Of a DNA stretch of 57,949 nt, positions 46,496 to 57,949 are shown piece after piece. The stretch comes from Bacilli bacterium (GTDB lineage Bacteria > Bacillota > Bacilli > Paenibacillales > KCTC-25726): NCBI GenBank assembly GCA_036381315.1, contig DASVDB010000140.1, positions 1 to 57,949 on the forward strand, written 5' to 3'. The translations under genes and the position numbers were made by a program. Below the pieces are notes generated by a model. The model was not told the origin of the DNA and did not search any database. It worked only from the letters and a program-made list of their open reading frames with translations. The number at the start of each line of letters is the position of its first letter. The stretch's first letter is position 1.

Positions 46496-46532
46496 AGCCG
46501 CTTCGCGGTTTTAAAACCACCTCGCCCTACGC

Positions 46533-46555
46533 TAACGGACGCAGCAGAGGCTATT
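46533..46555 (+). repeat. 23-bp intergenic repeat, copy 1
   Basis: TAACGGACGC, two variable bases (AG), then CAGAGGCTATT. Copies 2 and 3 share every base except positions 11-12 and one A/C at position 16. Confidence 0.85.
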
Positions 46556-46582
46556 TGCCGAAAAAAGGCTGGGCAAAAATTT

Positions 46583-46605
46583 TAACGGACGCCACAGCGG
46601 CTATT
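46583..46605 (+). repeat. 23-bp intergenic repeat, copy 2
   Basis: TAACGGACGC, CA, then CAGCGGCTATT, in the same direction as copy 1 and exactly 50 bases after it. Confidence 0.85.
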
Positions 46606-46692
46606 CGCCTTATTTTTACCTGAATGCCGCACAAAGTGCTAAAATAAGCGCGCCTACGACCGTTAAACTTAAAAACCGGGCGTAAAACCCCC

Positions 46693-49321: not shown

Positions 49322-49398
49322 CGGGGTATAGCGCAGCCTGGTAGCGCGCACCCTTGGGGTGGGTGAGGTCGCAGGTTCAAATCCTGTTACTCCGACCA
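49322..49398 (+). tRNA. tRNA-Pro (anticodon GGG)
   Basis: A full cloverleaf can be drawn. Acceptor CGGGGTA pairs with TACTCCG, the D arm includes GCGCAGCCTGGTAGCGC, and the anticodon stem CACCC/GGGTG holds the loop TTGGGGT with anticodon GGG. The T arm has GGTTCAAATCC and the CCA end is encoded (49396-49398). It lies between hbs and mtrB. The hairpin right after it (49400-49436) lacks a T-run. Confidence 0.95.
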
Positions 49399-49595: not shown

Positions 49596-49817
49596 ATGGA
49601 AACGCATGAGAGCGATTATTTCGTAGTCAAGGCCAAAGAAAACGGCGTGCATGTGATCGGATTGACAAGAGGACAGGATACCCGGTTTCACCACACGGAG
49701 AAATTGGATAAAGGCGAAGTCATGATCGCCCAGTTTACCGAGCATACCTCAGCGGTGAAAATTCGCGGCAAAGCGATTATTTTGACGAAGTACGGAAAAG
49801 TGGACACTGAAGAATAA
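49596..49817 (+). CDS. mtrB: Tryptophan RNA-binding attenuation protein (TRAP)
   Basis: Forms an 11-subunit ring that binds tryptophan and then GAG/UAG repeats in trp leader RNA, blocking tryptophan gene expression. From ATG 49596 it has 73 residues and matches the family throughout: [22 protein letters not shown] and [15 protein letters not shown]. The RNA-contact residues corresponding to K37, K56 and R58 are present (K36, K55, R57 here). The frame is open far upstream, past the tRNA, but nothing there resembles the family. mtrA (folE) is missing from its usual place. Confidence 0.95.
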
Positions 49818-55131: not shown

Positions 55132-56295
55132 ATGCGATATTTGACTGCGGGTGAAACGCACGGTCCGCAGCTAACTGCGATTATTGAAGGATTGCCAAGC
55201 AATTTGCAGATTTCGATTGAAGAATTGAATTTTCAGTTGCGGCGCCGCCAGAAAGGCTATGGACGGGGCAGACGCATGCAGATTGAGCAGGATACCGCCA
55301 AAATTGTCGGCGGCGTTCGGCATGGCAGCACAACGGGCGCTCCCGTCGCCATCGTCGTCGAAAATAAAGATTGGCAGCATTGGACAAAAGTGATGAATAT
55401 CGAGCCGATAGAAGGAGAGGACGAGGACAAGCGCAGGGTGCACCGTCCCCGTCCGGGACATGCCGATTTGAACGGCGGGTTGAAATACAACTTGCATGAC
55501 CTGCGCAACGTTTTGGAACGCTCGAGCGCGCGGGAAACCGCGGCGCGCGTCGCATGCGGGGCGATTGCCCGCCAGCTGTTGGCCGCGTTCGGCATCAAGG
55601 TGGCAGGCCAGGTTATCCGCATCGGCGACGTTGAGGCGAAACGAATCGACCTTCCGCTCGATGAATTGATCCGCATCACGGAACAATCGCCTGTCCGCGT
55701 AGTGGACAGCGAAGCGGAAGCCAAAATGATCGCATGCATTGAGCGAATCAAAAAAGAAGGCGACTCCATCGGCGGCATCGTCGAATGCGTCATTGAAGGC
55801 GTTCCGCCCGGCCTGGGTTCGCATGTGCAGTGGGACCGCAAGCTGGACGGGCGTATCGCGCAAGCGGTCGTTTCCATCAACGCCTTTAAAGGTTGCGAAT
55901 TTGGGATTGGCTTCGCAGCGGGGGAACTTCCCGGCTCAAAGGTGCATGATGAGATCATGTACAGCAAGGAGAGGGGCTTTTACCGCGCTTCGAACCGTTT
56001 GGGCGGATTTGAAGGCGGCATGACAAACGGGATGCCGATCATCGTGCGCGGCGTCATGAAGCCGATTCCGACATTATACAAACCGCTGCAAAGTGTCGAT
56101 ATCGATACGAAAGAACCGTTTACCGCCCAGGTGGAACGATCGGACGCCTGCGCGGTTCCGGCGGCGAGCGTCGTCATGGAGCATGTTGTGGCATGGGAAG
56201 TGGCCGTAGCTTTCATGGAAAAATTCGGCGGCGACTCGATGGAAGAAATTCGCGCAAATTATGAAAACTACATGAAGCAATTGGAGCGGTATTAA
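55132..56295 (+). CDS. aroC: Chorismate synthase
   Basis: Last shikimate-pathway step, making chorismate from EPSP with reduced FMN. The 387-residue protein has the signatures GETHGPQL (residues 7-14), [13 protein letters not shown], the [13 protein letters not shown] stretch, [12 protein letters not shown] and the C-terminal [19 protein letters not shown] precedes ATG 55132. It is first in an aro operon that leads towards trp genes in Bacillus (where it is called aroF). Confidence 0.96.
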
Positions 56296-56297
56296 AT

Positions 56298-57395
56298 ATG
56301 ATGAAAGAATTGTTGGTAGATTTACAAGAGCGTTCATACCCGATATATATCGGCGACGGATTGCTTAACGATGCCGCTTCGTATTTGCAAAAGCATGGGG
56401 TAAGCAAACAATCTCCCGTTATGGTGGTTACCGATACGAATGTAGCCCCGCTATACCTGGATCGGCTTGGCGGATTGCTGCAATCAGCCGGGTATACGGT
56501 CGTGCCGGCAATCGTTTCCGCCGGTGAAACGGCAAAGTCGTTGGATATGCTCGAAGAATTGGTCACCAAGGCGTTATCGGGCGGGCTTGATCGCAAATCG
56601 ACGATCATTGCGTTGGGCGGCGGGGTTGTCGGCGATTTGGCGGGATTTGCCGCCGCCAGTTACATGCGCGGCATTTCGTTTGTCCAGATGCCCACGACGA
56701 TATTGGCGCACGACAGCAGCGTTGGCGGCAAGGTCGGCGTCAATCACCGCTTGGCGAAAAATATTATCGGCGCATTTCACCAACCGAAATTTGTGCTGTA
56801 CGATACGTCAACGCTGCGCTCGTTGCCGTTGCGGCATATTCGCGCCGGATTAGCCGAAGTGATCAAGCACGGGTTCATCCGCGATGCGGAATTTGCCGCG
56901 TGGTGCGAAGAACATGCCGACGCGCTCTTGCGGTTGGATCCGCACGCTTTGCAGCACGCGCTTTACGAAGGTTGCAAGATCAAAGCGCAAGTGGTCGCGC
57001 AGGATGAAAAAGAAGCGGGCCTGCGCGCGATATTGAATTTGGGGCATACGATCGGGCACGCGCTCGAGGCGGTGGCCGGTTACGGCGAACTGTTGCATGG
57101 CGAAGCGATTTCGATCGGGATGATCGGCGCCGCCAAACTGGCGGTCCGCCTGGGACGGCCGGAAGCAATTTATCGGGACATGAAACGCGTCCTGCAGCGC
57201 TTCGGTTTGCCGACTGCGCTTTCGCCGCATTATCAAATTGAGGCGATCATGTCGGCCATGATGCACGACAAAAAATTCAAAGAAGGCGTCATCACTTTTA
57301 TCGTTCCGGTGCGAATCGGTGAAGTGGAGATCAATAAGCATATTTCGGCACAAACGATTCGCGAAATCGTCGCCGAATTGCAACGGGAGGATTAA
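56298..57395 (+). CDS. aroB: 3-dehydroquinate synthase
   Basis: Second shikimate-pathway step, NAD- and metal-dependent cyclisation of DAHP. The 365-residue protein has the NAD-binding GGGVVGDLAGFAAA, PTTILAHDSSVGGKVGVN, the metal-binding glutamate and histidines in GLAEVIKHG and NLGHTIGHALE, and LHGEAISIGM. It starts 2 bases after aroC at ATG 56298; ATG 56301 is also possible. Confidence 0.96.
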   Translation: MMKELLVDLQERSYPIYIGDGLLNDAASYLQKHGVSKQSPVMVVTDTNVAPLYLDRLGGLLQSAGYTVVPAIVSAGETAKSLDMLEELVTKALSGGLDRKSTIIALGGGVVGDLAGFAAASYMRGISFVQMPTTILAHDSSVGGKVGVNHRLAKNIIGAFHQPKFVLYDTSTLRSLPLRHIRAGLAEVIKHGFIRDAEFAAWCEEHADALLRLDPHALQHALYEGCKIKAQVVAQDEKEAGLRAILNLGHTIGHALEAVAGYGELLHGEAISIGMIGAAKLAVRLGRPEAIYRDMKRVLQRFGLPTALSPHYQIEAIMSAMMHDKKFKEGVITFIVPVRIGEVEINKHISAQTIREIVAELQRED

Positions 57396-57396
57396 C

Positions 57397-57762
57397 ATGT
57401 ACGTACGGGGAATTCGCGGTGCCACGACAGTCGATGCAAACAATGAAGAGGAAATTTTAAGCGCCACAGCGCAGTTGCTTAAGCGAATTGTGCAAGAAAA
57501 CAAAATTTCGCCGGAAGATATCGGGAGCGTATTCATTACGGTGACGCAGGATCTGAACGCCACGTTTCCGGCCAGAGCGATCAGGCAAATGAACGGGTGG
57601 GAGTTGGTTCCCCTGATGTGCGCGTTGGAAATCCCCGTTCCGGGCGGATTGCCCAAATGCATCCGGCTGATGGTCCATGTGAACACAGACAAACAGCAAA
57701 GCGAAATGGTGCATGTATACTTGAACAAAGCGCAATCATTGCGTCCGGATTTGAAACTGTAG
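57397..57762 (+). CDS. aroH: Chorismate mutase, AroH type
   Basis: Converts chorismate to prephenate, directing it to phenylalanine and tyrosine. The start is ATG 57397 behind GGGAGG, one base after the aroB stop, giving 121 residues. The trimeric AroH fold is recognised from YVRGIRGATTV, VTQDLNATFPARAIRQM and the C-terminal IRLMVHVNT. In B. subtilis trpE follows directly; here an insertion-sequence end begins 48 bases after the stop. Confidence 0.95.
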   Translation: MYVRGIRGATTVDANNEEEILSATAQLLKRIVQENKISPEDIGSVFITVTQDLNATFPARAIRQMNGWELVPLMCALEIPVPGGLPKCIRLMVHVNTDKQQSEMVHVYLNKAQSLRPDLKL

Positions 57763-57809
57763 GCGATCGCAAACACTCATCGCAATCACGCAAAGGCAAA
57801 CAAATGGGA

Positions 57810-57949
57810 GATAGTGTCCCGTCAAGTGGTGTAAATTCGATTTCTACCCTATGACTCAAATTTGTTTAATAGAAAAAATCACTTGCATCAAGTTGTCTTG
57901 TCAAGCCGCTCCAAAGGCATCCTTGACGCTGAACCTCTGGCGGATATGA
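57810..57949 (-). mobile_element. End of an IS256-family insertion sequence (partial)
   Basis: From GATAGTGTCCCG at 57810 the sequence continues TCAAGTGGTGTAAATT. This resembles, from memory, the terminal inverted repeat of IS256 (GATA...GTCC...GTGTAAAA). The following bases are more AT-rich than the neighbourhood and contain what looks like the 3' end of a minus-strand gene. The other end and the target duplication lie outside the window, so family and integrity are unproven. Confidence 0.5.
57901..57949 (-). CDS. C-terminal tail of a putative transposase (partial)
   Basis: Minus-strand codons from 57948 read HIRQRFSVKDAFGAA and then stop at 57903-57901. The gene would enter from beyond the right window edge, with its stop about 90 bases from the presumed inverted repeat, as in IS256-type elements. 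Only 15 residues are visible, too few to identify the enzyme. Confidence 0.3.
   Translation of the reverse strand, partial: HIRQRFSVKDAFGAA

Follow-up and report, generated by a model that had tools for sequence, protein, structure and literature searches.

Contig C140 breaks off in what is probably an ordinary insertion-sequence end, and the corresponding empty site occurs on another contig of the same assembly. The reading that we favor, and consider likely, is that an element with IS256-family termini is inserted polymorphically 47 bp after the aroH stop codon, C140 being the occupied version and contig C167 the empty one, and that control of the trp genes is kept. The window, meaning the whole stretch of DNA that was analyzed, is the entire contig C140 (57949 bp), and its right edge at 57949 lies inside the mobile element. 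The assembly from which it comes is 2.78 Mb in 183 contigs, with a completeness of 98.91% and a listed contamination of 0.22%. The left 300 bases of the window gave no other match in this assembly (E up to 0.001). The features of the window that bear on the argument are given below.

49322..49398, plus strand: tRNA-Pro (anticodon ggg) found by ARAGORN, upstream of mtrB
49596..49817, plus strand: mtrB (TRAP), intact; PF02081, E 1.4e-40; start codon chosen by us
55132..56295, plus strand: chorismate synthase; open reading frame, PF01264, E 2.8e-120
56298..57395, plus strand: aroB, 3-dehydroquinate synthase; open reading frame, PF24621 and PF01761
57397..57762, plus strand: aroH, chorismate mutase type I, 121 aa; PF07736 (CM_1), E 1.1e-49, and translation
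57665..57809: 145 bp in common with the start of C167, exact up to 57781 (117 bases), with mismatches at 57782 and 57803
57787..57809, plus strand: dispersed intergenic repeat, left edge (CACGCAAAGGCAAACAAATGGGA), interrupted by the element; similar left edges in loci L089, L103, L106, L090 and L093, the remainder being on C167
57810..57869, minus strand: IS256-family terminal sequence, corresponding in full relatives to the end 3' of the transposase stop
57810..57897: 88 bp identical (100%) to C67:1-88, where the outer flank is different
57905..57949: 45 bp at the contig edge, 93% identical to one hairpin arm in a repeated element of genome G029; not transposase-like

The gene at 55132..56295 is presumably aroF by Bacillus naming. 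When the whole genome was searched, the mtrB match spanned 49608-49811. The original statement that mtrB is intact was borne out by the PF02081 match. Upstream of these genes, window positions 46529-46690 are a copy of another dispersed repeat of ∼170 bp, with further copies at the start of C22, at the start of C29 and at C67 2748-2913 (∼91-94% identity among the copies compared).

The aroH stop codon at 57762 is followed by 47 bp and then, from 57810, by the element end GATAGTGTCCCGTCAAGTGGTGTAAA. In an alignment with five related ends, the clear likeness to the right-hand termini of complete IS256-family (Transposase_mut) elements extends over ∼60 bp (57810-57869). Searching 99 genomes with the border returned matches in seven, the genome of the window included. 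Those in G015, G044 and G054 begin at the equivalent of terminal base 57810 or no more than three bases inside it; those in G029, G067 and G086 fall on other parts of the query. Within a margin of three bases, the terminal boundary is common to G015, G044, L038 and L039. Scanning genome contigs with the element end gave three records, two from named Paenibacillus and one from a Paenibacillaceae MAG, in a collection that may leave out the record of the window itself. The end at 57810 was assigned to the IS256 family because the open reading frame adjoining the matching end is Transposase_mut in both L026 (E 8.7e-139) and L039 (E 2.9e-96). L038, by our reading, contains both ends of such an element and an 8-bp duplicated flank (ATCCGAAG), and this flank repeat sets the same boundary.

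The visible part of the element is 140 bp. Insertion sequences of the IS256 family in Paenibacillaceae (L038, from Paenibacillus senegalensis JC66; L039, from Paenibacillaceae bacterium ZCTH02-B3; and G015) resemble the window in the first ∼60 bp, in GATAGTGTCCCGTCAAGTGGTGTAAA (with one or two changes in some) and in the boundary. They differ in having the transposase C-terminus beside this end, whereas at 57870-57949 it is unrecognizable: none of the three minus-strand frames there reads as the usual transposase C-terminus (...ESMAKIVNGEQLPLASTTLLQK*). The initial description of an IS256-like repeat followed by a transposase tail after aroH is confirmed for the terminal sequence but not for the tail. 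PF00872 found no match in the window's own assembly, and the conserved core of the other element end was absent from the assembly with up to two mismatches allowed. Possibly the interior of the element failed to assemble, a common outcome with repeats; alternatively, this copy may be shortened or divergent. The contig probably stops at 57949 because the element is repeated. With one flank of the element inside the window, neither a second inverted repeat nor an 8-9 bp target duplication is visible. No inverted or direct repeats were found inside 57700-57949, and a search for the C67 flank without the element (an empty counterpart) found none. The border and the G029 hairpin gave no match in plasmid and phage collections, nor did four exact patterns in viral contigs.

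The 45-bp tail of the window leaves some room for a different view of the element itself, which we regard as unlikely: a short non-autonomous element combining IS256 ends with a structured hairpin (one arm being 57905-57949) that occurs also within the IS3-like element of G029 and, in G489, close to a CRISPR-like repeat, so that a small DNA or RNA cargo would be common to different mobile elements. Compared with loci L135-L137, this tail matched over 23-26 bases. Matches in L138 and L012 fall in gene-like sequence, which we take to be a phosphoglycerate kinase gene and a phosphatase-type gene, respectively, and were set aside as chance. The G029 hairpin (L024 2269-2430; MFE z −3.5) lies inside a repeated element read as IS3-like. 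A related hairpin in G489 (L134 1421-1540) adjoins two copies of GTTTCAATCCCTCATAGTTAAGATAAAAAC, which by our reading are CRISPR-repeat-like. On the minus strand of L024, 4222-4344, near the IS3-like element in G029, an EGFOA RNA scored 79.5 bits, above the gathering score. In Rfam searches of L024, L005 (C167) and L001 (E up to 1), the one match at the leader or the hairpin was a sub-threshold snoRNA at L005:673-700.

C167 (18235 bp) belongs to the same assembly and begins with the aroH tail. The two contigs diverge precisely at the terminal base of the element (57810), and C167 then continues through the dispersed repeat, a terminator-like hairpin, a promoter-like site and a TRAP-like leader into trpE, as follows.

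C167 about 141-345: dispersed repeat, by sequence comparison
C167:348-376: terminator-like hairpin, by scan
C167:619-648: promoter-like site TTGACG-18-TATAGT, by scan
C167:679-719: TRAP-like leader triplets, by triplet search
C167:792-813: terminator, by scan
C167:846-2411: trpE, by open reading frame and Pfam

The distance from the aroH stop to the trpE start on C167 is 747 bp. From their positions and translations, we take the open reading frames after trpE to be trpD, trpC, trpF, trpB, trpA, hisC and tyrA; the Pfam check of this trp region covered trpE and tyrA only.

A TRAP binding site is expected to consist of (G/U)AG triplets with 2-3 nt spacers, and the gene order of the B. subtilis supraoperon is aroB-aroH-trpE. 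The arrangement here resembles the B. subtilis aro-trp supraoperon in that order, in the trp genes that follow trpE, in the presence of mtrB, and in AG triplets placed before a terminator upstream of trpE. It is unlike B. subtilis in the length of the aroH-trpE interval on C167 and in the dispersed repeat within it. The C167 leader has nine closely spaced triplets (seven GAG and two AAG) in steps of 4-5 nt: AAG at 679, GAG at 684, 689 and 694, AAG at 698, and GAG at 703, 708, 713 and 717. For B. subtilis, published accounts describe an aro-trp supraoperon with TRAP attenuation (PMC4027176, PMC3913778) and 11 (G/U)AG repeats (PMC4027176), against the nine counted on C167.

When (G/T)AG is strictly required every 5-6 nt, C167 reaches a chain of three at most, the same length as on the window minus strand and no better than chance there. 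Under a loose rule (steps of 4-9) the C167 chain is seven, versus four and three on the strands of the window; of 826 control tiles taken from the relatives' loci, their own leaders among them, 8 contain loose chains of at least seven. The structure predicted for the leader base-pairs the GAG region with the 5' side of the terminator, after a separate 5' hairpin, and so contains both the terminator (C167:792-813) and a competing antiterminator. The leader folds moderately better than its shuffles (z −1.87, with 8 of 200 shuffles as good). Terminator-like sites on the C167 scan numbered four, versus 1.3 from shuffles. Promoter-like sites in C167:1-900 numbered two, versus 1.4 expected from shuffles; because the promoter scan is no better than shuffles, the promoter call rests on position. 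From its sequence and predicted fold, the C167 leader has the layout of a putative TRAP attenuator.

TRAP was found in 292 of the 296 genomes of the order, and 14 relatives were picked by us from the 292 with mtrB. All 14 have mtrB, aroB, aroH and trpE in that order. The IS256-type end at 57810 lies between aroH and the site at which trpE is expected, and C167 also has trpE after aroH. The aroH and trpE matches stand 252-552 bp apart in 13 of the 14 and 3549 bp apart in G006. There (L124 10595-14111), a 668-aa open reading frame, which by reading we presume to be chemoreceptor-like (methyl-accepting), separates the two genes. Within the 600 nt that precede trpE, the best triplet chain ranges from 4 to 12 across the 14; in two of them (G060 and G029) it begins 40 and 34 nt, respectively, upstream of trpE and is possibly not the TRAP site.

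The presence of two versions of the sequence after aroH can be explained in several ways. An assembly chimera, in which the end of aroH was linked to an element end that belongs elsewhere and the real continuation is C167, would fit the agreement between the C167 continuation and that of the relatives, as well as the position of the window edge in repeated sequence. A misjoin driven by a repeat should, however, fall inside the shared repeat, whereas the switch occurs exactly at the terminal base, where C67 and the relatives have their boundary too. The two differences between the window and C167 just before the border also look as if they came from a separate haplotype, and we judge a chimera to be quite improbable. 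Two haplotypes would account for these mismatches and for the exact overlap of 117 bases, as would an imperfect duplication. One chromosome might carry both joints, fixed, either through an imperfectly duplicated aroH tail (at least 145 bp) that flanks the element or through a tandem duplication of the aro-trp region. Both joints do occur in one assembly, at similar GC contents (52.1% for C140 and 51.8% for C167), and the aroH tail is where C167 begins. Against this, 145 bp is unlike the 8-bp duplication read in L038 for this type of element, and the 47 bp after aroH match only C140 and C167 in the assembly (E up to 0.001; aroH itself was not among the queries). Such a duplication seems to us improbable to much the same degree, and we infer polymorphism instead.

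Least probable by far is a fixed insertion that cuts trp off from both aro transcription and TRAP control. The border it would need is genuine, but an uninterrupted aroH-trpE joint stands on C167 in the same assembly, so fixation is not supported, and on that contig the TRAP-like leader is found past the insertion point, beside trpE. The original prediction that trp would be separated from TRAP control accordingly found no support. Of the trpE with GAG/UAG repeats to which it pointed, C167 has trpE and, ∼0.5 kb beyond the insertion point, GAG and AAG triplets but no UAG.

Contig ends were also compared with one another (105 of 366 ends). Besides C140-C167, one near-identical end overlap was found, between the ends of C8 and C19 (141 bp, 99.3%), and three more were 91-95% identical. 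By this count a genome-wide mixture of strains is not obvious, with most partner ends lying outside the sample. An attempt to derive the word size of the assembler from end overlaps was dropped, as the exact prefixes (117, 88, 45, 24, 4 and 2 bases) have no common value.

Under the polymorphic insertion that we favor, an element with IS256 ends would have jumped into the left edge of the dispersed repeat between aroH and the trp genes in part of the population, and the assembler would have written out both versions, the occupied one as C140 and the empty one as C167. In the C167 version, the insertion point is ∼470 bp from the promoter-like site and ∼530 bp from the first triplet, the whole promoter-leader region lying ∼470-570 bp beyond it. 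Because they lie beyond the insertion point, the promoter-like site and TRAP-like leader would remain joined to trpE, and at most the insertion could interrupt transcripts that run on from aro. If the sequence to the right of the element is as on C167, the occupied version would have the element ahead of both the promoter and the leader of trp; TRAP attenuation of trp would persist, and a loss of aro-to-trp read-through would be the only possible effect. Such read-through may be limited already by the terminator-like hairpin at C167:348-376.

A tempting regulatory story is therefore probably an ordinary one: another contig carries the empty joint, and an insertion here would leave TRAP control in place. 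When a gene appears to be followed by an insertion sequence at a contig edge, the other contigs of the assembly should be compared first. If the polymorphism is true, the two versions would be a natural test of the share that aro read-through has in trp expression in this order.

The repeat in whose left edge the element sits at 57810 is ∼200 bp long and is present in 11 copies in this genome: C167 141-345 and one each on C38, C9, C85, C109, C106, C56, C1, C174, C52 and C81. The other ten copies are 76-82% identical to the C167 copy, and shorter matches occur on C58, C66, C102, C134 and C166. Each copy contains about four TATGTGATTTTTCACATATA-like palindromic units at a spacing of ∼51 nt.
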